From Hoylesella nanceiensis DSM 19126 = JCM 15639 (GTDB lineage: Bacteria > Bacteroidota > Bacteroidia > Bacteroidales > Bacteroidaceae): a stretch of 64,000 nt of DNA. A program made the position numbers and the translations under genes. The stretch lies in assembly GCF_000379965.1 (NCBI RefSeq), contig NZ_KB904328.1:248001-312000 (forward strand). Reading direction: 5' to 3'. Positions 548 through 61,678 of the stretch are shown piece by piece. Positions within the stretch are counted from its first letter, which is position 1. Each line of letters starts with the position of its first letter. The notes beneath the pieces were generated by a model. It did no database searches. It saw nothing but the letters and a program-made list of their open reading frames with translations, and was not told the DNA's origin.

Positions 548-635
548 AAAAGCTATGAGTTTGCACCCCAAAAGCAATGCACTTACACCCTAAAAGCAGT
601 GCTTTTACATTGCAAAGTCAATGCTTTTCTAACCC
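548..635. repeat. Four-unit 22-bp dyad repeat element (array A)
   Basis: Four units start at 548, 570, 592 and 614, each 22 bp: a 15-bp near-palindromic core (unit 3 is AAAAGCAGTGCTTTT) plus a 7-bp C-rich spacer. It lies between the U32 gene and sufE, both on the plus strand. First of fourteen such elements in the window. Confidence 0.9.
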
Positions 636-766
636 AAGAGCAAAAGCCTTATAAACAAAGGACTTGCGAAGGGCGACACAAAAAGAAAATAATTAGAAAA
701 TAATTCACAAACAACCCTCCTCAGAAAGCACCTCAAAAGGCTTTCTGAGGCATAATATTCAAAGGT

Positions 767-1183
767 ATGACTATCAATCAAATACAAGACGAAGTAATCG
801 AAGAGTTCAACGATTTCGCTGATTGGATGGATAAATATCAAATGCTTATCGACTTAGGTAACGAACTTTCACCACTCGATAACCAATATAAAACAGAAGA
901 AAACCTCATCGAAGGCTGTCAAAGTAGAGTGTGGGTGCAATGCGATTTCGACGGAACACAATTGCATTTCACTGCAGATAGCGACGCTTTAATTGTGAAA
1001 GGCATCATCGCTTTGCTTATTAGAGTACTCGATAATCACACTCCTCAAGAGATATTAGATAGCGACTTATACTTTATTGACGCTATTGGTTTGAAAGAAC
1101 ACCTATCTCCTACCCGTTCAAACGGACTCCTTTCGATGGTTAAACGCATTAAGGCTTATGCCTTAGTATATGCTCAAAGCTAA
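767..1183 (+). CDS. sufE: SufE family cysteine desulfuration protein
   Basis: The 138-residue product has the usual SufE length. Its sulfur-accepting cysteine lies in the motif LIEGCQSRVWV, and the C-terminal NGLLSMVKRIKAYAL segment is typical. SufE takes the persulfide from a SufS-type cysteine desulfurase and passes it to the SufBCD scaffold during Fe-S cluster assembly in the cytoplasm. No other suf gene is nearby, as is common when sufE is unlinked in Bacteroidota. The SpoU methyltransferase gene follows after only 27 bp, so the two probably share a transcript. No clear promoter box was found upstream. Assignment rests on motif recognition and is strong. Confidence 0.9.
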   Translation: MTINQIQDEVIEEFNDFADWMDKYQMLIDLGNELSPLDNQYKTEENLIEGCQSRVWVQCDFDGTQLHFTADSDALIVKGIIALLIRVLDNHTPQEILDSDLYFIDAIGLKEHLSPTRSNGLLSMVKRIKAYALVYAQS

Positions 1184-1210
1184 ACACTTTACATAAGATT
1201 ACAGAATAAA

Positions 1211-1741
1211 ATGCGCAAGTTAAACGTATTAGAAATGAACCGTTTAACGGTAGAAGAGTTCAAAGCAGCTCGCAAACTACCCCTCGTTGTGGTGCTCGAC
1301 AATGTTCGTTCGCTCCATAATGTAGGCTCGGTGTTTCGCAGTTGTGATGCTTTTCGAATCGAAGCTGTTTACTTATGTGGCATAACGGCTACCCCACCCA
1401 GTGCCGAAATACATAAAACTGCACTCGGAGCAGAGGACAGTGTGAGCTGGAAATACTATGAATCGACCCTCAATGCGGTTGAAGAACTAAAGCAACAAGG
1501 CTATTTTGTGTATTCAATTGAGCAGGTGGAAGGATCGGAAAACATGGCTAAAATAAGCTTAGACGCCTCTAAACGCTATGCAGTTGTATTGGGAAACGAG
1601 GTGAAAGGCGTTGAACAAGCCGTGGTAAATGCCAGTGATAGCTGTTTAGAAATACCGCAATTGGGCACCAAACACTCGCTAAACGTAAGCGTAACCGCTG
1701 GAATTGTGGTGTGGGAGTTTGCTAAACAACTCGTACTTTAA
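1211..1741 (+). CDS. TrmH/SpoU family RNA methyltransferase
   Basis: A 176-residue SPOUT enzyme showing all three family motifs: motif 1 LDNVRSLHNVGSVFRSCDA, motif 2 VVLGNEVKGV and motif 3 SLNVSVTAGIVVWEF. These build the trefoil-knot site for S-adenosylmethionine, so it should 2'-O-methylate a ribose in tRNA or rRNA. It lacks the N-terminal substrate-binding extension of the 23S rRNA enzyme RlmB and is close in size to TrmL/TrmH-type tRNA enzymes; which nucleotide it modifies cannot be read here. It lies 27 bp after sufE. A small hairpin with a TTCG loop (stem 1742-1747 with 1752-1757) directly follows the stop codon but has no T-run. Confidence 0.88.
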   Translation: MRKLNVLEMNRLTVEEFKAARKLPLVVVLDNVRSLHNVGSVFRSCDAFRIEAVYLCGITATPPSAEIHKTALGAEDSVSWKYYESTLNAVEELKQQGYFVYSIEQVEGSENMAKISLDASKRYAVVLGNEVKGVEQAVVNASDSCLEIPQLGTKHSLNVSVTAGIVVWEFAKQLVL

Positions 1742-1796
1742 TTGCTTTTCGAAGCAAATAAGGAATCCATAGTAAAACAACTACATTGTAACAAGA

Positions 1797-4700
1797 ATGA
1801 AACCCGTGAACCTTTATACTTCAATAGCACGTTTCGTTGAACAAATAAGTGGTGCAACGAAACTGAAAAGACGTGCAATAAAGGTCGTTCTATCGTTCTT
1901 CTTAACGATAATTTTCATTGCTTGTAACGAACAAAACCATAACCTTCAGCTCGGAGAAATTGAGCAATCGTTCGACGAACAGCTTGTTTCTATCTCTCAA
2001 GAGAATGATTCTATGAGCTGGATAGGTAGTGCTGAGGGTGATGTTTGGCGCATATCGGCTCACACAAAGCAACATTTTGATATTTCAGACGACCGCATTT
2101 ACAAAGTGGTTGTACAGCCCTTGCCCAATAACGACACGCTTTGTTGGATTGGAATTCGCAACAAAGGACTCCAAAAATGGCAGTTATTGCAAGGCAAACT
2201 ACATTATATCAGTAGTTATCCTATCCCCTTTAAAGGTGTAAACTACTCAGTTTACGACATCATTTCTACGCAAAACAAGTTGTTAGTAGCAACGAGTAAC
2301 GGCTTGTTCTGCCTGCCTTTTAACAGCGAAAGCAATGCCCTTCAACGCTTATACCCCACTAAAACCGACCCAAGTTGCATGGGTCCTAAGGTTATTCGCA
2401 AGCTTGCGCAATATAACAACAACACTGTTGTAGCCGCATCGCAAAGCGGTTTGTTGGTAATAGACCTGCCAACCAATCACGTTTCGGCACTTCATGCACA
2501 GCAAGACGTGAAATATATTCACATTAAGAACGACACTTTATACACCCTTCTCAATCATTCTCTCGTCAAAGAAGGCATCAAAGGACAGGTATTTAAGAGT
2601 GTTTCGCTCGATTTTAGTCCTGCTGTTTACACACAAATCGACAACACCCACTATTTAATAGGCAACAAAACCATTGCCATTAGCAAAGATCTTGACAACT
2701 TTATCACCATCCCTTTGCGTCGAAAAGTGCCCACTTTGTGCAGTAATATCTTAACCATTGGGGCGAAAAACGGCTTTATGACGCTGGTAACGGAGAACGC
2801 TTTGTGGCGCATTCCGCATCATCTTAGCGTGTTTAATGATAACGGAGCCATAACAACTGCATGTTCCGACGAAAACAACAGCTATTTTATCAATGCCCAA
2901 AACGAGGTGTATTGCAGAAAAAACAATGAGCTATCGGCTAAGAAAATATACACACTTCCTGCCTCAGAGACGGTTCTTCAGCTTCATTCTAACCACAAAC
3001 AGCTGTTCTATACCACTGCTAACAACTCGGTAAAGACCATCTCTTTAAGCTCAAGTTACATCAAAAACCAACTCTTTGTACGCCCTTCTACCCTCTATCA
3101 AAGCTGTGCAAAGATCACCACCTCATATCTTTTTAGCGACGATAAGCAAACAAAACTCTACTTAGGAGTGCAAGATAGCGCCTTTATTATCGATCCCAAA
3201 GGAACTATTGAGCCTCTTAATAACTTCCAAAACAAATATGTTATCGCCTTTCTTTCAAAGGATAACAATGCACATTTGTATATTGCTACGCTCAATAATG
3301 GCCTGTTTTATGGCACAAATAACAAGTTTGTACCCATCAGTAGCAACGACTCTACGGGCGCATTGCGTGACTTTATTGTTACAGATGAGCACAATCCACG
3401 ATTTATTGGAGCCACCAATAGATTGGTGTTTATGCAAAACAGCAATGAACAAAAGCACATTAAGGGAATTAAAAAGCTGTTGTATGTGAACGACACGCTA
3501 TTCTATGCAGTGCTGAACAATGGCATTTTGCCTTTAACCCGCAAAGGAAATAGTTTGAAAGTGCACCATGTTTTGTATCCAGATATTCAGTTCGAGGCCG
3601 CTGCCTGCAATGTTTCTAAACAGCAATTGCAGTTGGGAAGTGCCATAGGTGTGTTGTTGCTCGATGCCGAAACGGGCGACAATGCAAAGTGGTTGTATTT
3701 TGATAGCAGCGTACCCAATATGCGAATTCTCCTCATTATCGCAGCCTTTGCCCTGCTAACACTCATTTCTGCGGTGATTATCATGAAGAATAGAGGACAA
3801 AACAGCGCCGAGTTAAACCTCGAATCGAAAGAAATTCTGTTGCAACGTCTAAAAGATTTAGAGGCGATGTTCGACCTATTAGAACGAAGCGACAGAGGAA
3901 ATATTGAGCAATTGCGCAACGATCTCGATGCAATAACATTGTCGGCACGCAAAGCCAACAAGCAATTAACAGCCGTTTCGCAACGCATTATGCAATTAAA
4001 CCGCAACACTGCGATGTTGTTACCTAAGAAACTGCAAAGTCAAATCAACCAAATAGCCACCATCAACGCTTGCGAACGCAACACACTCACACTCGAATCG
4101 CAAAACGCTTTGGCATCGGATAACCTCGAAACGATTAAAGATCAGGTGCAAAAGAATCAGCCTTGGATTCAACAAACCATGGCTATTATCGAAACATTGG
4201 CACTCTATAAAGGCACAATGGCACGTGTTGCGCCTATCAACGGCATTACCACTGAGGTGCAAAACGATATCACCCTCACCGAAAAAGCATTGATTAGAGA
4301 GCCTTTGAGCACCACTCTCGGTTACTTTAAGCAGTTGAGTGAGCACTATGAATGGCTGATGGGAGCAGAGAGTTTGCCTGCCCTTGTAGACTATTTAGAT
4401 GGTCTTTTTGTGCGATTGAACGACCTTTCGCCACAAAGCAACATTGTTTCAGCAATCGAAAAGGAGCTGAAAGAGATTGAATTAACGCTCAAAAACACCG
4501 ATAGAGAGCAGGTTCTTGTGAACATAAAGCGCATTACTAAGGTGATAGAACAGCTCGAAGAGTTGAAAAAATTGAGCAATTCGATGGAAAACTATGTCAC
4601 CATTAGGCAGTATGTCATTCACAATAACAAGGAGAAAGCAGTGCCTAAGCAGGCTTTCCAACTTGAAAACGAGGTGGCACAGAGGGCAAGTAACGAGGTA

Positions 4701-5021
4701 GAAGCCATTAAAGAGAGTGTAAATAAGGTGTTGAAAGGATTAGAACAAACCGATATTTACATTGTACACGACGTGTTGAATTTGAACAGAAAGGATAGTC
4801 AAACGGCACAAGTATTAGCTCTTCTCTTGGCCAATGCAAAGGTAAAGCGCACGCTTATTGCTGGAATGTTGGGCTTATATGGTAACTTTAATCCTGTTAT
4901 TAGTCGTTTGGTTAATGGCAAACTGAAGCCTAACAGAGAGCAACTCACTGAATATATACAACACACTCCTGCCACTTTGGTACAAGGAATTTTAGCTCTT
5001 ATCGACAAGAGTGAGGCATAG
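1797..5021 (+). CDS. Large membrane protein: beta-propeller-like sensor half, one TM, coiled coil, possible HTH
   Basis: Product of 1074 residues without a family I can name. An N-terminal hydrophobic stretch (about 27-43, ending FLTIIFIAC) looks like a signal anchor or a weak lipobox. Residues ~55-635 are rich in short beta-strands with repeated W-I-G, L-Y-L-G and N-G-L patterns, as in extracytoplasmic two-component-regulator propellers. A single strong membrane span lies at about 642-665 (RILLIIAAFALLTLISAVII). After it come ~330 residues of heptad-rich helix. The last 60 residues contain LIAGMLGLYGNFNPVISRL followed by VNGKLKP, which has the spacing of a helix-turn-helix of the XRE kind, but this is inference. 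No histidine kinase, receiver or LuxR domain is visible. It stands alone, 55 bp after the methyltransferase. Confidence 0.7.
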   Translation: MKPVNLYTSIARFVEQISGATKLKRRAIKVVLSFFLTIIFIACNEQNHNLQLGEIEQSFDEQLVSISQENDSMSWIGSAEGDVWRISAHTKQHFDISDDRIYKVVVQPLPNNDTLCWIGIRNKGLQKWQLLQGKLHYISSYPIPFKGVNYSVYDIISTQNKLLVATSNGLFCLPFNSESNALQRLYPTKTDPSCMGPKVIRKLAQYNNNTVVAASQSGLLVIDLPTNHVSALHAQQDVKYIHIKNDTLYTLLNHSLVKEGIKGQVFKSVSLDFSPAVYTQIDNTHYLIGNKTIAISKDLDNFITIPLRRKVPTLCSNILTIGAKNGFMTLVTENALWRIPHHLSVFNDNGAITTACSDENNSYFINAQNEVYCRKNNELSAKKIYTLPASETVLQLHSNHKQLFYTTANNSVKTISLSSSYIKNQLFVRPSTLYQSCAKITTSYLFSDDKQTKLYLGVQDSAFIIDPKGTIEPLNNFQNKYVIAFLSKDNNAHLYIATLNNGLFYGTNNKFVPISSNDSTGALRDFIVTDEHNPRFIGATNRLVFMQNSNEQKHIKGIKKLLYVNDTLFYAVLNNGILPLTRKGNSLKVHHVLYPDIQFEAAACNVSKQQLQLGSAIGVLLLDAETGDNAKWLYFDSSVPNMRILLIIAAFALLTLISAVIIMKNRGQNSAELNLESKEILLQRLKDLEAMFDLLERSDRGNIEQLRNDLDAITLSARKANKQLTAVSQRIMQLNRNTAMLLPKKLQSQINQIATINACERNTLTLESQNALASDNLETIKDQVQKNQPWIQQTMAIIETLALYKGTMARVAPINGITTEVQNDITLTEKALIREPLSTTLGYFKQLSEHYEWLMGAESLPALVDYLDGLFVRLNDLSPQSNIVSAIEKELKEIELTLKNTDREQVLVNIKRITKVIEQLEELKKLSNSMENYVTIRQYVIHNNKEKAVPKQAFQLENEVAQRASNEVEAIKESVNKVLKGLEQTDIYIVHDVLNLNRKDSQTAQVLALLLANAKVKRTLIAGMLGLYGNFNPVISRLVNGKLKPNREQLTEYIQHTPATLVQGILALIDKSEA

Positions 5022-5051
5022 TGCGAACCAAGTGTTGCACTATATAGAAAC

Positions 5052-5139
5052 AAAAGCACTGCAATTAGGATCTAATTGCAGTGCTTTTAGTAGGTAATCT
5101 CAATGCTTTTGCACCCCAATAACAATGCTTTTATTTTAC
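5052..5139. repeat. Four-unit 22-bp dyad repeat element (array B) with perfect 17-bp hairpin
   Basis: Units start at 5052, 5074, 5096 and 5118. Units 1 and 2 together form a perfect inverted repeat, 5052-5068 with 5072-5088, around the 3-nt loop GAT. No T-run follows, so it is not a standard terminator although it lies 31 bp after the stop of the 1074-residue gene. Confidence 0.9.
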
Positions 5140-5278
5140 AATGTTTTTCGTTCTAACAAGTAGAAGAAATGCAGATGAAAGCAAGGAAGTGGGTAATTAT
5201 GGAACAATATCTCGTTAAAAAATTATAACAAACGTATATCTTTCCCCAAACTATGCCCCTTATATCCCTTTATTTTAG

Positions 5279-5286
5279 TACTTTTG
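5279..5286 (+). promoter_or_regulatory. -7 box TACTTTTG of tRNA-Arg
   Basis: Exact match to the Bacteroidota -7 consensus TAnnTTTG, only 4 bp before the mature tRNA 5' end. No TTG is seen at the usual distance upstream. The predicted start of transcription therefore falls at or next to the first tRNA base. Confidence 0.6.
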
Positions 5287-5290
5287 CAGC

Positions 5291-5365
5291 GGTTCCGTAG
5301 CTCAGTTGGATTAGAGCAACAGCCTTCTAAGCTGTGGGTCAAGGGTTCGAACCCCTTCGGAATCA
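5291..5365 (+). tRNA. tRNA-Arg (anticodon TCT)
   Basis: A full cloverleaf can be drawn. Acceptor GGTTCCG (5291-5297) pairs with CGGAATC (5358-5364) with one G-T pair; D stem GCTC/GAGC; anticodon stem ACAGC/GCTGT around the loop CTTCTAA, giving anticodon TCT (reads AGA); T stem AAGGG/CCCTT around TTCGAAC. Base 5365 is the discriminator A. CCA is not encoded. It is a solitary tRNA. Confidence 0.95.
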
Positions 5366-5366
5366 C

Positions 5367-5420
5367 TAAAAAGCAAAGGCATTATCAATGATTTGATAGC
5401 GTTTTTGCTTTTTTGTTTTA
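5367..5420 (+). terminator. Probable terminator of tRNA-Arg
   Basis: AAAAAGCAAA near 5368 pairs with TTTGCTTTTTT near 5404-5413, with an inner TATCA/TGATA stem; the descending arm merges into a T-rich tail. Stem is AT-rich but well placed directly after the tRNA. Confidence 0.5.
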
Positions 5421-5549
5421 TATCAGTTCCACTTCTTTAGTCGTCTAATAACAAGTCTTTTCAATATAAACGAAAGGCTAAAGGACAGATTTTATAGATT
5501 TATTCAGCACACGTTACGCATCACTTGGCACCCAAAAGGTTGTTGGTGG

Positions 5550-5602
5550 AGATAACAATAAAACGCCTTCGACACCCATCAACAATGGATTTCGAAAGCG
5601 TT
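5550..5602 (-). terminator. Probable terminator for the 5646-6017 gene
   Basis: AACGCCTTCGA (5562-5572) pairs with TCGAAAGCGTT (5592-5602) with one mismatch; on the minus strand it is followed by TTTTATTGTT. It lies about 45 bp beyond the minus-strand stop codon. Confidence 0.5.
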
Positions 5603-5645
5603 CAATCGTTATTTTCAATCTTAAATAATAGGAGCGTTTACCCTA

Positions 5646-6017
5646 TTACTTTGGGTTTTGCTTGTGAAACTTCTCTGCTTCGGCAATAAGCCACTTCTTT
5701 CTGAACTTGAATACGGCAAAGAATGGAAGGAAAAGGAAGGGCAAACTCATCACAGCAAATATGAGAGTGGTGGCCTTTCTACTGGCTCTTGAATGAATAT
5801 TATCGCCAAGTCCATTCACAGTATCAACAATAGATTCGAGCAATTCTGCTCCTCCTATGAGATAAAGTATAAAAATTTCGATTGCAACAATACCAAAGAA
5901 CACTCCTAAAAGCTTCTTTCCTATTCGGTCGCAAATGGCCATTCGAGTTTGCAAGTCGATGTCTTTGCCGTGGGGTATGTTAGCAAACCAGTCGTTTGCA
6001 CGTTCTTCGTGTGTCAT
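5646..6017 (-). CDS. Hypothetical two-TM membrane protein
   Basis: I chose the internal Met at 6017 (MTHEERANDWFANIPHG), giving 123 residues, because the upstream extension to 6152 is low-complexity and unlike a protein start. The product has a short charged N-terminus, a first membrane span (about residues 34-53, GVFFGIVAIEIFILYLIGGA), a ~30-residue loop, a second span (about 84-103) and a basic tail ending KFHKQNPK. No family is recognised. It stands alone between tRNA-Arg and the sulfatase, which is transcribed the same way 168 bp upstream. Function unknown. Confidence 0.6.
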   Translation of the reverse strand: MTHEERANDWFANIPHGKDIDLQTRMAICDRIGKKLLGVFFGIVAIEIFILYLIGGAELLESIVDTVNGLGDNIHSRASRKATTLIFAVMSLPFLFLPFFAVFKFRKKWLIAEAEKFHKQNPK

Positions 6018-6184
6018 AATTTTATTGACTTTAAATTCATTTTGTATTTCAATAACGAGATAAAGCAGGCGTATAAGCCCGTTGTTTCTCGTTCGTTCTT
6101 GCCTAAGAGCTTTGCCCTGATGATGAAGGCGAGCAGATATTGCAAAAAACATCTGCTGTAATCGCCATCAACCAACATTTCTTT

Positions 6185-7771
6185 TTAGTTCAAAGGGTAC
6201 TTAAAACGAATGGGATCATCGTATTGTTCTTGTAGCTTCCAAAGCTCTTTTTTAAGCTTCTTCACCACTTGTTGCATGTTCGCATCGTTGTAAGCGTTGT
6301 GCATTTCTTTTGGGTCTTTCTCTAAATCGTATAGTTCCCAAGTGTCGATGTCGTTATAGAAATGAATCAACTTATAGCGTTTTGTTCTAATTCCATAATG
6401 TCTTTTCACTGCATGTTCAGCGGGATATTCGTGGAAATGATAGTAAAGAGCATCTCTCCAGTGCTTTTGTTTTTGTCCTTTTAATAGTGGAAGCAACGAA
6501 ACTCCTTGTATATCGCTTGGCACATTCACGCCTGCTAACTGCAAAATGGTTGGAGCATAGTCGATGTTTTGCACCATTTCGGTTACATCTCCACGTTTGT
6601 TGAATTCTTTTGGCAAAGACATTACCAATGGAGTACGCATACTTTCTTCGTACATAAAGCGCTTATCGAACCATCCATGCTCTCCCATATAGAAGCCTTG
6701 GTCGGACGCATAGATCACAATAGTGTTCTTATCGAGACCTGTTTGCTTTAAATAATCGAGCACTCTACCTACGTTATCGTCGAAAGTTTTAAGCACTTTA
6801 GCATAGTCTCTCATATAACGTTGGAACTTATATTTATACAATTCCACTGTATCTTTATGCTCTTTGCTGTAGAAGTCGATAGAAAGAGGAGAATATAACT
6901 TGAAGTATTCTGCCTTTTCTTCATCGCTCATTCTGCTAAGCATACCCACATAGCCATCTGAAAGACGTGACTTTTGACCTGGAAGATACATCTTTGTGTC
7001 GTAGATAATATCCATATGCTTGCCAACTTGCATCTCTTGAGCCGACGCAGCCTTTCTTCCCTCGTAGTTATCGTCGAAGTTATCGGGCATATCGAAGGTC
7101 TTATCTTCATACTCATTCAAGTATTTCATCTCAGGAAGCCAGTTTCTATGGCATGCTTTGTGTTGCATTAAAAGCACGAAAGGCTTATCTTTATCACGCT
7201 GTTCAAGCCAGTTTAAGCCGAGATCTGTAACGATATTGGTTACATATCCCTTATATCGAACAGTGTCGTTGTTCATAGTTATGAAGTCAGGATTATAGTA
7301 ATTACCTTGTCCAGGGAATATAGTCCAATAGTCAAAGCCCGTTGGAAGGGTCTCAAGATGCCACTTTCCGACGATAGCTGTTTGATAACCTGCCTTTTGA
7401 AGCAGCTTAGGAAAGGTCTGTTGGGTGCCATCAAACACGCTCATCTCGTTGCTTAAGAAGCCATTTTTGTGACTATGTTTACCTGTTAACATACACGCTC
7501 TACTTGGACCTGATAGCGAATTGGCCACGAAACTATTGGTGAATTTAACACCATTGTCGGCAATTCGGTCGAGATTAGGGGTGTTAACATAACGCTTGTC
7601 ATAACAACTCATCATTTGAGCAGTGTGGTCGTCGGTCATAATCATCACCACATTGTATTTTTGTTGTGGTGCTTTATCGGCCTTGTTTTGAGCCAATGCC
7701 AATGAAGAAGGAACCAAAGCTCCGAGCCATGGCGTAAGAAGTGTTGCGATGTGTGTGATTTTTGGTGTCAT
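6185..7771 (-). CDS. Secreted sulfatase (S1 family)
   Basis: 528 residues from the Met at 7771. This start gives a clean signal peptide (MTPKITHIATLLTPWLGALV...ALAQ); an upstream Met at 7801 would run into repeat array C and is unlikely. Metal ligands D47-D48 (IMTDDH) and the modification motif S87-G-P-S-R mark a serine-type sulfatase, so formylglycine would be made by an anaerobic anSME-type maturase not seen in this window. The C-terminal LYDLEKDPKEMHNAYND block is standard. Such enzymes remove sulfate from host mucin glycans or glycosaminoglycans in the periplasm or outside. A consensus promoter lies at 7892-7923 and repeat array C occupies the 5' leader. Substrate cannot be told. Confidence 0.9.
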   Translation of the reverse strand: MTPKITHIATLLTPWLGALVPSSLALAQNKADKAPQQKYNVVMIMTDDHTAQMMSCYDKRYVNTPNLDRIADNGVKFTNSFVANSLSGPSRACMLTGKHSHKNGFLSNEMSVFDGTQQTFPKLLQKAGYQTAIVGKWHLETLPTGFDYWTIFPGQGNYYNPDFITMNNDTVRYKGYVTNIVTDLGLNWLEQRDKDKPFVLLMQHKACHRNWLPEMKYLNEYEDKTFDMPDNFDDNYEGRKAASAQEMQVGKHMDIIYDTKMYLPGQKSRLSDGYVGMLSRMSDEEKAEYFKLYSPLSIDFYSKEHKDTVELYKYKFQRYMRDYAKVLKTFDDNVGRVLDYLKQTGLDKNTIVIYASDQGFYMGEHGWFDKRFMYEESMRTPLVMSLPKEFNKRGDVTEMVQNIDYAPTILQLAGVNVPSDIQGVSLLPLLKGQKQKHWRDALYYHFHEYPAEHAVKRHYGIRTKRYKLIHFYNDIDTWELYDLEKDPKEMHNAYNDANMQQVVKKLKKELWKLQEQYDDPIRFKYPLN

Positions 7772-7793
7772 CAAAATATTTTGTTTAGGTTTA

Positions 7794-53760: not shown

Positions 53761-55089
53761 TTATTTTTCGAGTAATTCAAGAGTAGCAAGTTTTTGCTTA
53801 ATAGCACCTTGAACCATTGCTTGTGGCATTTCCATATTCTCCATTCTGAGCGACTCTGCGAAGCCTTGGTTATAGTATTCACGAGCCTTGTTGTAGTCTT
53901 TCAATGCACGATATGAGTCGCCAATCATCACAATATAGTTCACTCTGTCCATCACTGCATCGTCTCCTTGAAGGGCTTTTGTTACCCATTGGATAGCTTG
54001 TTGATGGTCTTCGTTCTTCAAACTCTTTGCTGCCGCATTGTAAAGGTTTTGAGCTGCCTTACCAAAATCTGATGGTTGAGCTGCTGCTCCCATCTTTTCG
54101 AACAACTGTTGCATTGCCTTGATGTAGCCTTTAACATCTTTGTTTTTATAAAGGTTATACAAAGCGTCGTTGTAAAGCTGTGCATGTTCATAAGAGTTGA
54201 TGCCTGGTTGAGCTATAATGCTATAAGCTTTAGCATAAAGATTCTTTACGTTGTCGACATAGTCTTTATACTTTACGTTGGCTTCTTTAGCATAGTCTTC
54301 TGCAAAAGCGTCGTTTGCTTCTACAATATAGAAGGCTGGTGCCTTGCCAAGAACTTTGGTCCACTCGTCGATATTGCTGTTAATCATGTTCACAATACCT
54401 AACTTGTGCTCTTTATTATCTTCGCCTTCAAGAGTGAGAATGATGCGATAGTCGTTGGCATTAATAAGCTCTTTGGGGTTCTTTGTTGCCACATAGTTTT
54501 GGTATATCTTTTGAATTCGAGTCACCCACTTATCTGCTTCGATACCATCTTGTGCCTGCAAGAAGCTGGGAGCCTTAAGAAGTAGTTCTTGTTGAACGGC
54601 TAAGTCTTGTGGATTAGCTTTATACTTCTTATACAAATCGTCGAAACTAACGCTTTCGCCTGCTGCTATTTGAGCCGCTTCTAATAGCTCTTCCTTGCCC
54701 AAAGCACCTACATTTACCGATAAAGGCTTTCCGTCTGCATCAATAAATGCTACAGTTGGATAGGCTTCTACCTTGTATTGTTTAGCTATTTCTACGTTTT
54801 CTGGCTTCTCAGCGTCGATCTGTAGACTAATAAAGTGCTTGTTCATATAGTCTCCAACCTCTTTTAATGTAAACACATTCTTAGCCATGTGCTTGCAAGG
54901 AACGCACCAAACGGCATAGAAGTCCACGAAAAGAGCCTTGTTAGTTTTCTTTGCTTCGGCTAAAGCTTCAGCGAAAGTTCCATTAAAGAATATAATACCT
55001 TTGACGTCTGCAGAGCTTTTATCACTTGTGTTTTGCGCCTTTGCCACCAATGAAAGGAGTGCAAAGAGCATTAAAAATATCTTCTTCAT
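53761..55089 (-). CDS. Secreted thioredoxin-fold protein with C-terminal helical repeats
   Basis: 442 residues: signal peptide (to AKAQ, 19), a thioredoxin domain (~28-135) with the redox motif W61-C-V-P-C65, then ~300 residues of helix including TPR-like pairs near the C-terminus (AIQWVTKALQGDDAVMDRVN; ALKDYNKAREYYNQGF). The domain should reduce or form disulfides in the periplasm. It lies between the lipoprotein genes and the M16 peptidase in the SusC/SusD locus, suggesting that imported substrates contain disulfides that must be opened before proteolysis; this is inference. Confidence 0.85.
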   Translation of the reverse strand: MKKIFLMLFALLSLVAKAQNTSDKSSADVKGIIFFNGTFAEALAEAKKTNKALFVDFYAVWCVPCKHMAKNVFTLKEVGDYMNKHFISLQIDAEKPENVEIAKQYKVEAYPTVAFIDADGKPLSVNVGALGKEELLEAAQIAAGESVSFDDLYKKYKANPQDLAVQQELLLKAPSFLQAQDGIEADKWVTRIQKIYQNYVATKNPKELINANDYRIILTLEGEDNKEHKLGIVNMINSNIDEWTKVLGKAPAFYIVEANDAFAEDYAKEANVKYKDYVDNVKNLYAKAYSIIAQPGINSYEHAQLYNDALYNLYKNKDVKGYIKAMQQLFEKMGAAAQPSDFGKAAQNLYNAAAKSLKNEDHQQAIQWVTKALQGDDAVMDRVNYIVMIGDSYRALKDYNKAREYYNQGFAESLRMENMEMPQAMVQGAIKQKLATLELLEK

Positions 55090-55157
55090 ATTCGTTCTTT
55101 CTGTTATATAATTAGTTTATTAACGACCTATTGGGGGCTTATCTCTACCCTTTGGGC

Positions 55158-55619
55158 TTATTCATAGTCTTGAACTATCACCTTAAAGGCATTCTTGAGC
55201 ACGCTTGAATGGTCGTCGTTATACACTTTAATACTGATATTATATTTGCCATTCGTTAGCTTTTCGACTGCATCTTGGAAGACAAGAACAAGTCCACCGT
55301 CTACTTTTATTCTCTTTTCTTTCACTAATTGTTCGAAAACAGTAGCGTCTCCGCCTTCAGAAACCTCTACTCCTGCAAACTCATAGTTCAATGGATTGGT
55401 TCCAGCTACACCCTGAATACGTGTAGAAACCCATGGAGTTTTGTTGATATAGCGGTCGCTTGTGGTGTCGAGATTGCGAACAACAATCATCGAGTCGGGT
55501 GTAAATGAAGCACCAGTGGTGCGCAAATAGCCCACTTTTACCTTGCTACACGATGTGAAGCAGATAGCAAATATAGCGAAAAGTGCTAACAATGCGATGT
55601 TAAGAGTTCTTTTCTTCAT
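55158..55619 (-). CDS. Small lipoprotein of the SusC/SusD locus
   Basis: 153 residues. Lipobox CFTSC with the acceptor Cys at residue 24, followed by a beta-rich domain (SFTPDSMIVVRNLD; GKYNISIKVYNDDHSSV) of Ig-like or cadherin-like character that I cannot assign to a named family. Only 3 bp separates it from the FAS1 gene upstream and 68 bp from the thioredoxin gene downstream, so it belongs to the locus and probably sits on the outer membrane as an accessory substrate-binding lipoprotein. Confidence 0.7.
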   Translation of the reverse strand: MKKRTLNIALLALFAIFAICFTSCSKVKVGYLRTTGASFTPDSMIVVRNLDTTSDRYINKTPWVSTRIQGVAGTNPLNYEFAGVEVSEGGDATVFEQLVKEKRIKVDGGLVLVFQDAVEKLTNGKYNISIKVYNDDHSSVLKNAFKVIVQDYE

Positions 55620-55622
55620 AAT

Positions 55623-56267
55623 TTAAAAGTCTTTTAAACTAAAGTTATAATCAAGTGAATGTACCACACCTGTTAGGGTTTGAATGTTAGAAGACGCCAC
55701 ATGTGAGGTCTTTGTTGTTGAACTTGAAACCAAATAGATCTGCAATGGTCCTGCATTGGGTACATTATTATAATCTTCTCTAAATGTATATATCCACAAA
55801 GGGTTGTTAGATGCCATTGTAAATGTTTCGCCTCCTGTTCCTATTGGATTACTTGCATCAGACGACTTCACACCTGTTTTGAAATCATCTAACATGATTC
55901 TCTTTGGCAAGATGCTGTTAAGAATGAATGTTTTGCAGTCTGCCACAGGGATATCAGCCACACTTTTTAATCCATTAGCATACAAATAGCGACGTATGCT
56001 GTGGTTGGTTATACCAAAGAAGGTGATGTCTTTGCCATAAGAACTGGTGCCTTGGAACACCGAAACCAAGTCTGCTCGCTCTGCCATAACACGCAATGAG
56101 TCCCAATTATATGGGTCGGTTTTGAAGTATTCCCACATAGTTGTTTGGTGATCTCCATTTGCTACGCCTGTATCTATTAAGTTATAATCGGTACAACTGG
56201 TTGCCATAAAGGTAGAAGCAACGAACGAAAGCGCACCAAAGAAATATTTCATACTTTTCATATTCAT
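55623..56267 (-). CDS. Fasciclin (FAS1)-like lipoprotein
   Basis: Start chosen at the ATG of MNMKSMKYFFGALSF (56267); nearby Mets at 56261 and 56252 are equally possible, while the frame's first codon at 56282 is TTG. A lipobox FMATSC gives a lipid anchor. The rest follows the FAS1 pattern: TMWEYFKTDPYNWDSLRVM, ITFFGITNHSIRRYL, a central FILNSILPKRIMLDDF and the closing HSLDYNF. FAS1 domains mediate adhesion or ligand binding. In Bacteroidota they are seen as third proteins after SusC/SusD, as here (5 bp after the SusD stop region). Confidence 0.75.
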   Translation of the reverse strand: MNMKSMKYFFGALSFVASTFMATSCTDYNLIDTGVANGDHQTTMWEYFKTDPYNWDSLRVMAERADLVSVFQGTSSYGKDITFFGITNHSIRRYLYANGLKSVADIPVADCKTFILNSILPKRIMLDDFKTGVKSSDASNPIGTGGETFTMASNNPLWIYTFREDYNNVPNAGPLQIYLVSSSTTKTSHVASSNIQTLTGVVHSLDYNFSLKDF

Positions 56268-56287
56268 TTCTTTTAAATTCAAATGTA

Positions 56288-57835
56288 TTAGTTATAAGCT
56301 TGCCAATAGGGCTTTTGACGGAGCAAAGTATTGGTGATGTGTCCGTCTTTATCTTGCCAAGCGTCTTTAGGAAGTGGTAAGAATAGGGCACCATTCTTGA
56401 TGTCTTGTGTTGTAAGAAGGGTGAACTTACCTTGCAATTCTTCCTTAATGTAATTGTTTCGCACGATATCTGCATAGCGAGCGTCGTTCTCTCCGATGAA
56501 TTCTTTCACTCTTTCGAGATATATTGCCTTCTTTAATCCCTCTGTGTCGTATGTAGATGGATAGGTTAAAGCACCCGCTCTTGTGCGTATTTTGTTCAAG
56601 TCTGTGGTGGCATCAGCAGTGTTTCCGAGCTTATTATAGCACTCAGCACGTAACAATATGATGTCGGCTAAACGCCAATAAACATAATCTGCGTCCATTG
56701 TTCTATAGCCTACGCCGCTTGCAGAATACTGATCGGGATCCATTATCGCCTTTCTGAACTTGTACATGATTGCATATTCAATACCATCTTTTTCATGACT
56801 TTGATCGAACTGATAGAAAAACGATTGCAAACGCTCGTCGGTTGCATCAGGAAATAAATTACTTATTGTCTGTTTGTATAGACGAAACTGTGTACTTGTG
56901 GGCAAATCGGCTAACTGTTGGTCTTCTCTTACAGGCCAACTCACGTAGTTTCGTGCAATTGTGTTAGGCGAAGTTACATTCGAAGAACGTGTTTTATCGA
57001 AGTAAAGACTGAATATTGCCTCTGGATTTGTTTTACTTGGATCAGACAAATATTCGCATAGTGTTTCAGGACTGCTGCACAATTCGTAGCTACCTGCTTG
57101 GTTATTGATAATAATCGAAGCATAGTTCACTGCGTTTTGGTAATCCTCTTGTGCATTACCTTGTAGTGAATACAACTCTGTTACGCTACCTTTCCAAGCA
57201 TACAAGTGCGCCAATAGCGCTGCAGCTGTTCCCTTAGAAGCTACCTGACGATTGGTGACTACTGCCCCATTGATATCCTTTAAGTTTTCATGAGTAGGCA
57301 ACAAATCATACGCTTTCTTTGCATGTTCAATCGCAGTGTTGAGCACTTCGCTCTGAGTTGACAATGGATAAGGCTTAATTTCACTTGAGTTTTCAGTGAT
57401 AATAGCATCTCCATAGCGTTGAGCAAGCATAAAGTATGCCAAACCTAAGCCGAATTCAGCCTGTCCTTTGTGGTAGTTTTCACGCTCAGTGGTTAGACCT
57501 TGCGTTCTATAAATATTGTCTAACAATAGGTTCGACTCAAAGATTATATCGTATAAGCCTTTCCATGAGTATTCACTATTCATGACAGTACGAGGGTTCC
57601 ACTCACGAACTTGAGTTCCATCTAATAGTGCATCGGCTTTAACTCCAGCCATAGCGAAGATCGCATTCTCTCCAATTGTTGTGTTTATGTAATATAGAAT
57701 TGATGAAGTAGTGGCATTTAGCTCACGTTCTGTTTCGAAAGAGTTTGAATAAGTCAAACCATTTTCTGGTAATATATCTAGATTACACGATGCAAGGGTT
57801 AAACCCATAGCACCTATAAGCAATAATTTCTTCAT
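56288..57835 (-). CDS. SusD/RagB family outer-membrane lipoprotein
   Basis: 515 residues. Lipobox LTLASC (Cys17) followed by the helical SusD fold: TPR-like helices at ~120-260 (GLGLAYFMLAQRYGDAII; AIEHAKKAYDLLP) and the C-terminal block WRLADIILLRAECYNKLG, LNKIRTRAGAL, with the closing FLPLPKDAWQ. It forms the hinged lid of the SusC transporter. It lies 6 bp after the SusC gene. Confidence 0.92.
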   Translation of the reverse strand: MKKLLLIGAMGLTLASCNLDILPENGLTYSNSFETERELNATTSSILYYINTTIGENAIFAMAGVKADALLDGTQVREWNPRTVMNSEYSWKGLYDIIFESNLLLDNIYRTQGLTTERENYHKGQAEFGLGLAYFMLAQRYGDAIITENSSEIKPYPLSTQSEVLNTAIEHAKKAYDLLPTHENLKDINGAVVTNRQVASKGTAAALLAHLYAWKGSVTELYSLQGNAQEDYQNAVNYASIIINNQAGSYELCSSPETLCEYLSDPSKTNPEAIFSLYFDKTRSSNVTSPNTIARNYVSWPVREDQQLADLPTSTQFRLYKQTISNLFPDATDERLQSFFYQFDQSHEKDGIEYAIMYKFRKAIMDPDQYSASGVGYRTMDADYVYWRLADIILLRAECYNKLGNTADATTDLNKIRTRAGALTYPSTYDTEGLKKAIYLERVKEFIGENDARYADIVRNNYIKEELQGKFTLLTTQDIKNGALFLPLPKDAWQDKDGHITNTLLRQKPYWQAYN

Positions 57836-57841
57836 ACTCTT

Positions 57842-60800
57842 TTAGAATTTTAGATTAACACCGAATGTCACTTTACGATTCAATGGATATTGTGTTCCAT
57901 CGTCTTTACCGGTGTATGGGTTGATAATTTCTGGGTCTAAGCCAGAGTAATTACTTAACATAAAGAGGTTTTCACCGCTTAAATAAAGGTTGATGTCTTT
58001 AATAAAGAATCCCTTTAGCCATTTCTTTGGCAATTGATAGCCTACAACAAGCTGTTTAAGACGTAAGAAACTGATGTTTTCGATGTTTGAATCTACGTTG
58101 CCATCGTGTTGTCCGATATAGTCTTTATCAGCGTAATGAAGTGAAGGATACTTCGCATTTGTGTTGGTAGGAGTCCAGAAATCATTTTCATCAAAGCTGT
58201 TCATAATCACACCAAACTCTTTAGTAAAGGTGTAAGAACCGCCTCTATACATGTTCATAACCTTTCTTCCGAGAGTGTAACTGAATAGAACATCAACATT
58301 AAAGCCCTTCCATTCGAGGTGAGAGTTAATACCTCCGTACACTGCTGGCAATGTACTTCCTGCATAGTAAAGGTCTTTTTCGTCGATAACACCATCAGAG
58401 TTTTGGTCTTTAATCTTTCTTCCGCCTACTCCAAGTGGGTTATTTGCCGATTGGAAGTATAGTGGCATCAACTTACCTGTTGCGTTATAGTAAGTAGGAA
58501 TGTCCTCTGCTCTTTGCACAATACCCTCGTCTTTGTAGGTATAAATACCATAAACGGGACGTCCAAGCACCTTATCATTAAGGTCTTCTCCATTATATGT
58601 CTTTCTCAACTTGTTGCGGTTGTGACTCAAGTTCAATCCAACCGACCAAGTAAGGTCTTTTGTTCTAATCAAATCTGCTTGTACTTCGAACTCGATACCC
58701 TCGTTAGATATAGCAGAAGCGTTATCCCATACACGGTCTGAAAGGAAGACATTACCAGGGAGATAAGCTTGCATTAGCAAGTTACTTGAGTATTTATAAT
58801 AGTAATCGAGTTTGAATTTAAGACGATAGTCGAGCAATTGAAGGTCGATACCCAAGTCGTATTGGTCGCTTTCTTCCCATGTTAGTTTTTTATTTGCCAT
58901 TGATTGAGGAATCAATCCCAATGAGCCATTGAACTTTTCGCTTTCTTGCATCACACCAAGAGCGATGTATGGTTCTTGGAACTTTTGTCCTGATTTACCC
59001 CAAGAAGCACGAAGCTTACCGAAACTTAGCCACCAAAGCTTTTTAAACATGGGCTCTTCACTGAACGCCCAACCAAGACCTACCGATGGGAAAGTACCCC
59101 AACGCACATCTTTTCCGAATACACTTGAACCATCAGAACGAAGCGATAGCTCTGCTAAGTATTTCTTCTTGTAGTTATAAGCCACACGTCCAAGGAAACT
59201 AAGCATTGCTTGATCTTCTTTATTTGCTAAGAAAGTTTGAGCTGCTTTGGGTGTTCCCGAACCGTCGTTGATAAGAGTTGGCCAGCCTTCTCCAGGATAT
59301 TTCACTCTATTTGTTGGTCCACCTTTAGCCGTACCGCTAAGGTTTTGAAGCAAATCGTAGTTGTATGTCATACCAGCTAACAACTCTAATTTCTGCTCAT
59401 GAGGCAGATTTAGGTTGTAGGTAAGCAAGTTTTCGGTTTGAACACCAGTCATAGCAATGTTTGAACCTTGTGCTTCCGACAACTTGTCGTATTTCAAGTA
59501 GCTTGGAGTGAAGGTGAAAAGACGAGTAAAATATTGGTCTAACGAGAACGAAGAAGTAAACTTCAAGCCTTTAAGGATTTGATAGTTCAAACCTAAGCTC
59601 AATCTCACGTTATAGTTAGAGTTGGTTTTATCGATATCACGCAACTGCTTAAGGGCCTCTTTTTCTGCAATACTTCCTTTACCAGGGAGCACAGTTGGGG
59701 TTCGTTTAGGGTCGAAAGTAAGACCTTGAGCACGTCCCATATCCGCGCCAGCCTTTTGAGTTGTGTAGGTTAAGTTAATTCTTGAGTATAAGCTTAACTT
59801 TGTAGATAGGTTGAAATCCAAGTTGGTTAACAAGCTATATCTGCGGAAGTTAGAGCTAATCATGATACCTGTTTCGTCGTAAATACCACCATTTACAAGA
59901 TAGCGCACATTTTCTGTACCGCCCGAAAGCTGTACATCTGCCTTAGTAACACGTCCAACTCTGAAGGCATATTTCCACCAGTTGGTTCTATTATTATAGA
60001 AGGTGTTCAAAGAGTCTTGTGCAATTGAAGGCAAACGACGGTCGCCTTCCACCACATTACCATTTCTCCAAAGGTAGTCGTAAGCACCATCTCCGTCGAT
60101 ATCCCAGCCATATGAGTCTTTATAAGACTTGGGATGAACAAGGTTATCGGTAATATAATCATAGTGAGAAGTGCGTTGTTGCTTTGCCATTAGCAATGCA
60201 ATGTCTCTTTCTCCTTTACCTAAGATTTGCACTGGAGTACTTGGTAGCCACGAAAGCGATTGCGAAACGTTGATATTCACTTCCGACTTACCCGACTTAC
60301 CCTTTTTAGTTGTAACCAAGATCACACCATTTCCTGCTCTCGAACCATACAAAGAAGCCGAAGCAGCATCTTTCAACACTTGCACACTCTCGATACTTGA
60401 GGGATCTAAGCCCGACAATGGGTTGATACCTCCTGTGCTTTCAGATGATCCACTCGTTATAGGTACACCGTCGATAACGAACAATGGACTACCATCGTTC
60501 ACGCCTTTTTGGTTCAATGAGCTAAAACCACGAATCGTAATCTTCGTTCCTCTACCACCAGGAGAGCCCGAAAGGTTGGTAACATCCACACCAGCTACAC
60601 GGCCTTGAAGAAGGTTTTCGACACTGGGTGAAGGTGCTTTTTGTAGGTCTTCGGCTTTAACTGAACCGATAGCACCCACTTGTTCACGTGTATTTCGTTT
60701 ACCATAAGCAATAACCGACACCTCGCCCACCATGTAAGCAGATGAAGGAAGGGTGATGGTTAATGGTTTATTGGCGTCGTATTTAATGGTTTTTGTTTCG

Positions 60801-61327
60801 TAACCAACGCTCGACACAGTTACATCGCCATGCTCTTTGTCTACAAGAAGAGTGAAGTTACCATCCATGTCGGCACTTGTTCCTACCGAGGTACCTTTTA
60901 TTTGCACCGTTGCAAGTGGAATACCAGCTCCATCTTTGTCTTTTACCAAGCCTTTAAGGGTGAATTTGCCCGCTGCGTTCTTTTGCATTTTGAACACATT
61001 GATAGCCTTTCCCTCTACGTTGTAGGTAAAGGGTGTGCCCTTTAAAACGCTTTGAATGGCACTCAACTCATCTACGTTATCGAATGATATCGTAAGAGTT
61101 AACGAGTCATTTTTCACATCATCGGTGTAATTCACCTTGTACTCGCCCTTGCTAGATAAGAAATCTAGGATGTAAGCAACGCTCTTTTCTTTAAAAGAAA
61201 TAGAGAAATTTTTGTTTAATACTTGTGCTCCCGCATTCAAAGGATTAGAAAAGGATAGGAGAACAGCATTAAATAAAAACAAGAAAAATAGATTCCTTGT
61301 TTTGTTTGATGCACTCTTTCTTGTCAT
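57842..61327 (-). CDS. SusC/RagA family TonB-dependent transporter with STN domain
   Basis: 1161 residues: signal peptide (MTRKSASNKTRNLFFLF...), an STN domain (~37-112) which usually signals through an anti-sigma/sigma pair, a carboxypeptidase-like CNA-B repeat (~120-200, LKGLVKDKDGAGIPLATVQI), the plug (ENLLQGRVAGVDVTNLSGS ... PLFVIDGVPI) and a 22-strand barrel ending VTFGVNLKF. It imports a large substrate across the outer membrane with TonB energy. First gene of the locus. No FecR/ECF pair is in the window even though the STN domain predicts one. Confidence 0.93.
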   Translation of the reverse strand: MTRKSASNKTRNLFFLFLFNAVLLSFSNPLNAGAQVLNKNFSISFKEKSVAYILDFLSSKGEYKVNYTDDVKNDSLTLTISFDNVDELSAIQSVLKGTPFTYNVEGKAINVFKMQKNAAGKFTLKGLVKDKDGAGIPLATVQIKGTSVGTSADMDGNFTLLVDKEHGDVTVSSVGYETKTIKYDANKPLTITLPSSAYMVGEVSVIAYGKRNTREQVGAIGSVKAEDLQKAPSPSVENLLQGRVAGVDVTNLSGSPGGRGTKITIRGFSSLNQKGVNDGSPLFVIDGVPITSGSSESTGGINPLSGLDPSSIESVQVLKDAASASLYGSRAGNGVILVTTKKGKSGKSEVNINVSQSLSWLPSTPVQILGKGERDIALLMAKQQRTSHYDYITDNLVHPKSYKDSYGWDIDGDGAYDYLWRNGNVVEGDRRLPSIAQDSLNTFYNNRTNWWKYAFRVGRVTKADVQLSGGTENVRYLVNGGIYDETGIMISSNFRRYSLLTNLDFNLSTKLSLYSRINLTYTTQKAGADMGRAQGLTFDPKRTPTVLPGKGSIAEKEALKQLRDIDKTNSNYNVRLSLGLNYQILKGLKFTSSFSLDQYFTRLFTFTPSYLKYDKLSEAQGSNIAMTGVQTENLLTYNLNLPHEQKLELLAGMTYNYDLLQNLSGTAKGGPTNRVKYPGEGWPTLINDGSGTPKAAQTFLANKEDQAMLSFLGRVAYNYKKKYLAELSLRSDGSSVFGKDVRWGTFPSVGLGWAFSEEPMFKKLWWLSFGKLRASWGKSGQKFQEPYIALGVMQESEKFNGSLGLIPQSMANKKLTWEESDQYDLGIDLQLLDYRLKFKLDYYYKYSSNLLMQAYLPGNVFLSDRVWDNASAISNEGIEFEVQADLIRTKDLTWSVGLNLSHNRNKLRKTYNGEDLNDKVLGRPVYGIYTYKDEGIVQRAEDIPTYYNATGKLMPLYFQSANNPLGVGGRKIKDQNSDGVIDEKDLYYAGSTLPAVYGGINSHLEWKGFNVDVLFSYTLGRKVMNMYRGGSYTFTKEFGVIMNSFDENDFWTPTNTNAKYPSLHYADKDYIGQHDGNVDSNIENISFLRLKQLVVGYQLPKKWLKGFFIKDINLYLSGENLFMLSNYSGLDPEIINPYTGKDDGTQYPLNRKVTFGVNLKF

Positions 61328-61427
61328 TAATGATTACTTTTTTGTTACGAAGTCTTGGTTTATCTTGTGGTATCACTACGGAAAGAAAAACCCAAAGAAA
61401 TTCTTTAATATTAAAAATTTTCGATTG

Positions 61428-61435
61428 CAAAAATA
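61428..61435 (-). promoter_or_regulatory. -7 box TATTTTTG upstream of the SusC gene
   Basis: Matches TAnnTTTG on the minus strand about 100 bp before the start codon. No TTG partner at the usual distance; consistent with an alternative sigma or an activator, but the match may be chance in AT-rich DNA. Confidence 0.35.
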
Positions 61436-61590
61436 CGAAAAAACTACAACACCTTATTATTTTTAGTGAGAGATTATCAAAAAAAATAGCTTTCTAACAT
61501 CTATTTTACACATTCTTAATACTAAAAAAGATAAGTTCTTGATTATTGCCCCGTTTTATTTATAATTTAACAACCTTTCAAGTTGTCCCC

Positions 61591-61678
61591 AATAGCAGTG
61601 CTTTTTTACTTCAATTTCATCGCTTTTGCGGTCTAAAAGAAGTGCTTTTGCGCCCCAAAGTCAATGCTTTTCCAGCAC
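61591..61678. repeat. Four-unit 22-bp dyad repeat element (array N)
   Basis: Units start at 61591, 61613, 61635 and 61657. It lies 72 bp upstream of the DUF2851 promoter. Confidence 0.9.

Follow-up and report, generated by a model that had tools for sequence, protein, structure and literature searches.

Periodicity of about 11 bp in prokaryotic DNA has been debated for decades. REP and BIME elements are numerous intergenic palindromic repeats that bind proteins, and REPs, whose palindromes form hairpins, are associated with RAYT transposases. The sites of parS/ParB and H-NS are nucleation sites of spreading DNA-binding proteins; among the families of such proteins, we know of none with four 22-bp dyads or with a DNA-encoded lattice in register.

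The available text of PMC7537859 describes a periodicity that extends for 1 kb or more in E. coli and argues that selection and an unknown, ancient binding partner are behind the ~11-bp periodicity. BrickBuilt, according to the accessible parts of PMC4596501, is a minisatellite-MITE of Porphyromonas gingivalis with the 23-nt tandem unit AGAYCATARTATCCTCTCRTRTG; the same parts mention 22-nt tandem repeats in strain W83, with neither their sequence nor their place. In a literature search, with most subscription papers beyond reach, no description of the arrays presented here was recognised.

The DNA analysed, referred to as the window, is a stretch of 64,000 nt from Hoylesella nanceiensis DSM 19126. 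Fourteen elements of four units each, in exact 22-bp register, had been claimed for it from the sequence alone (the sequence-only reading), and all 14 were directly observed, without any insertion or deletion. Each unit consists of an AAAAGCA-N-TGCTTTT dyad core and a spacer, 22 bp in total, and the conserved part of an element measures 81 bp (15+7+15+7+15+7+15). The features are listed below, with reference to the close relative G268 (gene identity about 93%).

548..635, no strand: element A, four 22-bp dyad units, in-place orthologue in G268
5052..5139, no strand: element B, G268 orthologue in place
7794..7881, no strand: element C, within a conserved block
8277..8364, no strand: element D, in the divergent gap shared with element C
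14226..14313, no strand: element E, at a synteny break versus G268
18666..18753, no strand: element F, in a gap where G268 synteny changes
24395..24482, no strand: element G, within conserved synteny
30040..30127, no strand: element H, G268 orthologue in place, with a one-base gap in unit 1
33005..33092, no strand: element I, downstream of gyrB, G268 orthologue in place
35858..35945, no strand: element J, within a conserved block
40361..40448, no strand: element K, G268 orthologue in place, nearly identical
44360..44447, no strand: element L, G268 orthologue in place
50507..50594, no strand: element M, G268 orthologue in place
61591..61678, no strand: element N, G268 orthologue in place
1..64000, no strand: AA/TT lattice with a period of 10.98 bp and a subharmonic of 21.95, sharing the register of the elements

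A position matrix was built on the 56 units. In the window it scored 71 additional cores at more than 6 bits, versus 45–73 in ten Markov-1 shuffles. The extra cores being at shuffle level, real units lie almost only within arrays, the clearest exception in the window being one strong lone unit at 30282. A fixed orientation of the elements was discarded, as arm asymmetry was only mildly coherent (628.9 vs 541.7, s.d. 41.8).

REPs form hairpins, whereas the dyads found here are of odd length, in fixed helical register and without a consistent fold; a stable single-strand hairpin of REP/BIME type does not agree with fold z-scores from −3.7 to +1.7 in eight elements. BrickBuilt, in the accessible text of PMC4596501, is similar in consisting of dispersed intergenic tandem units of about 22–23 bp in Bacteroidales. 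Its unit is unrelated to the present one when compared by eye, and its leader and tail segments, which bear inverted repeats at their ends, have no counterpart here, shared flanks being absent among 67 elements of this genome. Neither the 23-nt unit nor shared inverted ends of a leader and tail being present, assignment to BrickBuilt was rejected.

Unit number and spacing were determined in a sample of 464 kb out of 2.65 Mb, made up of the window and 20 further 20-kb stretches. It contained 75 arrays of at least three units, a density biased upward by the choice of several stretches near model hits; 67 arrays had four units, five had five and three had three. The fifth unit was weak in both five-unit arrays scored (L063, L074), and a weak fourth unit was seen by eye beside two of the three-unit arrays. 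Positions in register flanking 54 four-unit arrays scored a mean of −12.6 bits, versus +17.4 inside. The proposed constancy at four units thus holds in the window (14/14) and in most of the sample (67/75), but arrays of five and three units also occur. Broad variation in unit number, absent within this genome, was partly encountered across the genus, where relatives carry 3 to 8 units (G005, 3; G012, 3–5; G006, 4–8).

Neighbouring core pairs at most 40 bp apart were at 22 bp in 205 of 214 cases. No arrays appeared in the 464-kb sample at spacings of 18, 19, 20, 21, 23, 24, 25 or 33, nor in three Markov-1 shuffles of it, as against 75 in the real sequence. Within an array, units resembled one another barely more than they did units of other elements (core identity 0.743 vs 0.726), and on this basis, together with the 67/75 four-unit arrays, a slippage-type tandem repeat was excluded. 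The earlier claim that selection acts on geometry was supported by these values, by the zero counts at eight other spacings, and by the conservation of cores while spacers drift at kept length.

The latter was observed directly against G268. The two genomes share 160 gaps flanked by the same genes. An array was present in both versions of 23 of these and in neither version of 137 (many of these too short for an array), and no gap had one in a single genome only, so that conservation at orthologous gaps, which had been proposed as a check, was complete in this pair of relatives (23/23). Over 22 orthologous elements, identity was about 91% in cores, about 73% in spacers and about 77% in near flanks. 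It reached 0.895, 0.933, 0.936 and 0.876 in the cores of units 1 to 4, 0.973 at near-invariant core positions, 0.715–0.753 in spacers and 0.78/0.76 in the flanks of ±22 bp. Spacer length was kept in 21 of the 22, and one array (L057 6961) differed from G268 by exactly one unit. As judged from these alignments, this is purifying selection on sites of apparently protein size, rather than mobility or slippage. A cooperative protein-binding array is expected to present its dyads on one face of the helix and to keep them by purifying selection, as seen here, and the dyad symmetry suggests that a dimer binds.

Dispersal as mobile or MITE-like repeats, the internal sites being those of a transposase, was considered in view of other species. 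In G100 and G017, 14 of 18 arrays were within a dispersed repeat with similar ends (matches of 189–459 bp in G100), and a repeat of about 370–700 bp in G012 carries a five-unit array. In the present genome, on the other hand, the masked flanks of the 67 elements have no sequence in common (12 pairs reached E<0.01, of which one was a self-overlap and the others spanned 17–38 bp), and no presence/absence differences were found in the 160 gaps shared with the one relative. With flanks unshared and empty sites absent, transposition is disfavoured in this genome, and the mobile reading is very improbable.

The elements could also be recombination sites, at which the chromosome is cut and rejoined. 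In a comparison with G268 synteny, conserved blocks enclosed 25 of the 75 own elements, 23 adjoined the end of a block (some of these ends being small colinear gaps) and 27 were uncovered, and the arrays L070 13050 and 17093 look chimeric, with unit 1 from one parent and unit 4 from the other. However, broken gaps with and without an element numbered 12 and 8, against 32 and 49 kept gaps (odds ratio 2.3, p=0.13), and element-bearing gaps are longer. This association is suggestive but not significant, and we regard recombination as having a very slim chance of being the explanation.

Only one of the 75 sampled arrays was within a called gene. In gaps 100 bp or longer, 15/30 convergent, 15/39 divergent and 40/114 tandem gaps were occupied, and array occurrence tracks gap length. 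In gaps of 200–300 bp the values were 0/8 for divergent, 7/9 for convergent and 7/20 for tandem. A terminator or promoter element was rejected, as convergent, tandem and divergent gaps are occupied alike, with the exception of short divergent ones, which are avoided. An RNA feature (hairpins, a terminator or a processing signal) would fit the frequent occupation of short convergent gaps; the dyads could pair, and three of eight folds clearly beat shuffles. Against it, the fold scores, from eight of the 14 window elements, revealed no common structure, spacer positions 2 and 6 pair below chance (0.303 vs 0.425), the sole Rfam match in the window was one tRNA, and divergent gaps are filled as well. 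RNA structure was rejected and is considered extremely improbable.

AA/TT autocorrelation lay near 11 bp (10.98 bp), coding DNA included, as in prokaryotic ~11-bp periodicity. This lattice was observed directly, and the 10.98-bp line is carried chiefly by AA, TT and GC. Over lags of 30–100 bp, two 50-kb stretches of E. coli, cut into four segments as a control of low power, had an amplitude roughly 18-fold smaller. The lattice resembles the dinucleotide periodicity of PMC7537859, PMC4132750 and PMC3431218, likewise in AA/TT near 11 bp and including coding DNA; phase-fixing elements, a doubled 22-bp period and substitution that follows phase are not described in the available text of these papers. 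Coherence beyond 10 kb, seen as line ratios, was dropped, because a broad line also increases the autocorrelation noise in its neighbourhood; a signed per-segment test took the place of these ratios.

The weak AA/TT signal at the array register runs on beyond the arrays, through the neighbouring genes. This extension of the 22-bp register had been missed in the sequence-only reading. In the window, element and flanks differed in phase by no more than a quarter turn in all 14 cases (R=0.87 at 21.95, 0.94 at 10.975). With flanks of 140–1800 bp, the phase lock was R=0.83 in the present genome (G000; n=61 of the 67 four-unit arrays) and R=0.73 in G268 (n=75). With coding positions only, the G000 flanks gave R=0.84, and 59 of 61 elements agreed. 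The same flank test showed no lock at four wrong periods, and none was found at 71 and 200 random anchors, 85 centres of element-free gaps or 303 gene starts. Adjacent elements, at median spacings of 4.5 and 5.9 kb, agreed in phase when distances were taken modulo the period (R=0.437, n=58; R=0.372, n=92).

Substitution rate varied with lattice phase, from 0.074 to 0.100 over all sites (p=1e-16) and from 0.130 to 0.206 at third codon positions (p=2e-22). This dependence could be a footprint of mutation or repair instead of selection.

When eight other species were pooled (n=50), R was 0.41 for the period of 21.95 and 0.56 for that of 10.975. Lock was present at 10.975 and not at 21.95 in G012 (11 elements), at 21.95 and not at 10.975 in G006 (8 elements) and G092 (5), and at neither in G017 (6) and G055 (4). 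In the signed per-segment test of lattice presence, four 20-kb segments of G305 were positive; this genome yielded no array match at E<=1e-4 among the 150 of 1232 first-look candidates scored. G133 and G005 had 32 and 39 rows of array matches, both strands counted, and no consistent kilobase lattice in the 60 and 80 kb studied, respectively. Arrays and lattice can be separated, either occurring alone in some relatives, which counts against a nucleoid-protein model. Core words also differ between species, as does unit number, so one conserved protein would need a shifting specificity, a second point against that model. The absence of arrays from short divergent gaps (0/8 at 200–300 bp) is a further one.

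Arrays without a kilobase lattice in G005 and G133 would be expected if the elements were operators of a large regulon, in which an ordinary dimeric transcription factor occupies four cooperative sites at each of some hundreds of loci, the lattice being an independent property with which these sites merely align. Dyads, cooperativity-like spacing and purifying selection all fit as well. Arrays, however, follow gap length and avoid the short divergent gaps where promoters lie, and phase lock with distant coding DNA is left unexplained, so that this reading is unlikely. Phased A-tracts, by which the strong curvature of the elements would determine superhelix geometry with no need for a sequence-specific protein of its own, agree with A-tracts every 11 bp and with the dinucleotides that carry the 10.98-bp line. 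Base recognition is suggested instead by the conservation of the GCA-N-TGC centre, by core words that differ from species to species and by a unit of 22 rather than 11 bp, and arrays and lattice dissociate; the A-tract reading is quite improbable.

The arrays are best read, with a probability of roughly 55%, as registration sites of a putative dimeric nucleoid protein that reads the AA/TT lattice, an interpretation drawn from sequence patterns. Each element would be a composite high-affinity site for an abundant, nucleoid-structuring protein, four dimers of which would bind, probably cooperatively, on one DNA face at dyads two helical turns apart. The same protein, or a fibre nucleated by it, would read the weak AA/TT pattern of 10.98 bp, doubled at 21.95 bp, which extends one to a few kilobases on each side and crosses genes, mostly in dinucleotides that include the third codon position. 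The elements would keep a regular nucleoprotein lattice in register and might also nucleate it, with a possible role in packing or silencing. More tentatively, some bacteria may possess a DNA-encoded chromatin register, in which dedicated four-dyad elements set lattice phase over kilobases, genes keep synonymous sites in step, and the lattice protein touches the DNA at every other turn, as the doubled 22-bp period would imply.

A high-affinity site with kilobase-scale spreading, as in parS/ParB or H-NS, would give the layout seen here. HU (9/9 genomes), HU-HIG (9/9) and ParB (14/14) were present throughout, leaving no presence variation to set against arrays or lattice, and the counts of HU and HU-HIG, in nine genomes each, did not track either. 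ParB, found in all 14 genomes, did not track the arrays, and its loss was rejected as an explanation. None of the three is thereby singled out or discounted as the binder.

Given a defined element in register with the ~11-bp periodicity, an 88-bp probe could serve to isolate the binding partner, and tests of the lattice could proceed base by base. If the proposed reading is true, bacterial DNA packing would follow a sequence-encoded register, with a logic comparable to nucleosome positioning, and synonymous codon choice would be partly set by the lattice.

The 14 intergenic elements described in the sequence-only reading, each with four dyad units in 22-bp register, were confirmed as stated, and they align without gaps over 99 columns. 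The core consensus is AAAAGCA-N-TGCTTTT, with positions 1, 2, 6, 10, 14 and 15 nearly fixed and positions 3–5 and 11–13 variable, where alternative half-site words are used. The genome of Hoylesella nanceiensis DSM 19126 contains 66 exact copies of the core and 0 of its reversed control. A sample of 464 kb of this genome (the window plus 20 further stretches, some of them picked near matches) contained 75 arrays of at least three units: 67 with four, 5 with five and 3 with three. No arrays were found in three shuffles of the same sample, nor at eight other unit spacings. In 67 arrays of this genome, spacer positions 2 and 6 were complementary less often than expected (0.303 vs 0.425); the spacers are thus oriented, in contrast to the symmetric cores. 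The matrix trained on H. nanceiensis detected 93 arrays in an uninterrupted 970-kb region of G268, a close relative (75 four-unit, 14 three-unit, 3 five-unit and 1 seven-unit), and extrapolation of this density to 2.5 Mb suggests about 240 arrays per genome. Lone single dyads were observed at window position 30282 and in stretch L066 (about 10385–10497), the latter being conserved in G268 at a gap with no array.

Only one of the 75 arrays was located inside a gene, as called with our own simple gene caller. When gaps of 100 bp or longer were considered, arrays occupied 15/30 of the convergent, 15/39 of the divergent and 40/114 of the tandem ones. Occupancy increased with gap length, from 7/74 below 200 bp to 14/37 (200–300 bp), 18/31 (300–450 bp), 23/29 (450–700 bp) and 8/12 above. 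At 200–300 bp it was 7/9 in convergent, 7/20 in tandem and 0/8 in divergent gaps, as if promoters were avoided. The masked flanks of 67 elements shared no sequence above chance-size matches. A tRNA gene lies at window positions 5291–5365, in the gap after element B.

G268 shares 95% identity in gyrB and a median of 93% over 193 mapped genes with H. nanceiensis. Of 160 gaps with the same flanking genes, 23 carried an array in both genomes, 137 (many too short for an array) in neither, and none in one genome only; one common gap held two arrays in H. nanceiensis and one in G268. Element I, downstream of gyrB, has a match at the same place in NC_022111.1 (Prevotella sp. oral taxon 299 F0039). This 1.77-Mb replicon, whose record calls it an unnamed plasmid and lists a single feature, carries arrays. 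Identity over 22 in-place elements was 0.88–0.94 in cores, 0.72–0.75 in spacers, 0.76–0.78 in the adjoining 22 bp and 0.82–0.84 at 22–60 bp out. Selection on geometry, as proposed earlier, is supported: spacers diverge yet keep their length, with the exception of one exact unit loss or gain, and cores are conserved. Distances between adjacent elements (15 pairs, about 2 to 11 kb) changed by 0–2 bp in 13 pairs, and by 22 and 25 bp in one pair each. Two length differences relative to G268 amount to exactly 22 bp, one at L057 6961 (a unit lost or gained) and one in L069 between elements 9365 and 13714. Two arrays at synteny breaks, L070 13050 and 17093, look chimeric: in each, units 1 and 4 match different parents in G268, and the inner units match neither clearly.

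AA and TT in register continue beyond the four units, coding DNA included. In H. nanceiensis and G268 alike, the element-anchored signal extended for about 2 kb and farther, with fitted periods of 21.96 and 21.95 bp, respectively; it was absent at random anchors. Anchor-free AA/TT autocorrelation gave a lattice of 10.98 bp and, near 21.95 bp, its subharmonic. When terms were signed and tested per 20-kb segment, the 10.976-bp term in H. nanceiensis (in thousandths) was 9.8 at lags of 30–100 bp, 8.6 at 300–600 bp, 4.3 (z 8.5) at 1000–2000 bp and 2.0 (z 3.4) at 2000–3000 bp, and was not significant past 4 kb; the 21.95-bp term faded more slowly (z 4.6 at 3–4 kb, 2.4 at 6–9 kb). G268 showed the same decay. 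The Escherichia coli control (two 50-kb stretches, four segments) gave 0.55 at 30–100 bp and no consistent signal farther out, with a lone z of 4.6 at 1–2 kb (amplitude 0.27).

The array unit equals two lattice periods, and the arrays are positioned at the lattice phase. When the phase in flanks 140–1800 bp away was compared with that predicted from the element, it agreed in 59 of 61 elements of H. nanceiensis (phase agreement R=0.83, with errors averaging -5 degrees; the flank was missing for 6 of the 67 four-unit arrays) and in 92% of 75 elements of G268 (R=0.73). All 14 window elements were within a quarter turn of the flank phase. The lock was absent at each of four wrong periods and when the elements were replaced by random anchors, by the centres of 85 gaps lacking an element or by 303 gene starts; it was retained in coding positions alone (R=0.84). 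Within genes the signal was greater in dinucleotides that include the third codon position (19.6, 15.7) than in positions 1–2 (8.6); noncoding DNA gave 24.5. Neighbouring elements were mutually in phase modulo a period fitted on those same elements' flanks (R=0.437, n=58 in H. nanceiensis; R=0.372, n=92 in G268).

The substitution rate between the two genomes, binned by lattice phase at 45–1500 bp from an element (106,718 aligned sites), spanned 0.074–0.100 over all sites (p=1e-16); for third codon positions the span was 0.130–0.206 (p=2e-22). A/T-site differences varied with phase (0.032–0.060, p=9e-17), and G/C-site differences did not (p=0.19). Wrong periods gave flat rates, with p=0.007 in a single noncoding case as the exception. 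The three random-anchor sets gave p=0.57, 0.87 and 0.012 over all sites, and the third also gave 0.0035 for noncoding sites. The dependence may reflect selection or phase-dependent mutation, which cannot be told apart because the differences are unpolarised.

At E≤1e-3, a first model built from the window only had matches in 13 of 40 genomes, among them H. nanceiensis itself and two weak cases outside the genus, G025 and G033. A second profile, for which six species supplied 19 elements, had matches at E≤1e-4 in 68 of 200 genomes of the same genus, again including H. nanceiensis; 23 candidates were scored per genome and counts per genome are lower bounds. The core word varies by species (AAAAGCTATGCTTTT, AAAACCTATGCTTTT, AAAACCTACGCTTTT, AATATCAGTGATTTT and others). 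The 22-bp spacing was kept across species, 21 or 23 being rare, whereas the constancy of unit number was not: four units in G017 (6/6) and G055 (4/4), three in G005, three to five in G012 and four to eight in G006. Of 28 relatives whose gyrB is 74–79% identical, G184 carried a six-unit array within 1.5 kb of that gene; the other 27 lacked an array there. In L127–L130 (G100) and L092 (G017), 14 of 18 arrays lie within a dispersed repeat whose ends are similar (TTTGTAAAGATAATTC ... GAAAAATATTTACA) and which resembles a short mobile element carrying an array. G012 has a five-unit array in three near-copies (L077 16823, L079 5190, L081 6321) within a repeat of about 370–700 bp.

When 62 gyrB loci (14 kb or longer) from named or labelled Prevotellaceae were scored, the lattice was detected at z>4 in 14, most strongly in Hoylesella saccharolytica and H. 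enoeca, and was absent in Segatella baroniae. The lock in other species was uneven (pooled R=0.41 and 0.56, n=50), being present in G100 at both periods, in G012 at 10.975 bp only, in G006 and G092 at 21.95 bp only, and in G017 and G055 at neither. Genome G305 has the lattice and no array match among 150 candidates scored, and G133 and G005 have array matches and no consistent kilobase lattice; these results count against a single array–lattice system. Comparison of HU, HU-HIG and ParB across genomes identified no binding protein. HU-HIG family matches numbered 4 to 15 among nine congeneric genomes, without tracking arrays or lattice.

A genomic periodicity of ~11 bp is already described in PMC7537859, PMC4132750 and PMC3431218; within the open-access literature searched, a discrete element linked to genomic periodicity is new. 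Judged from their sequence, the arrays behave as conserved, predicted cooperative binding sites. The simplest single account is a putative dimeric nucleoid protein that would bind tightly to the arrays and weakly to the lattice; the arrays would thereby register or nucleate a regular fibre.
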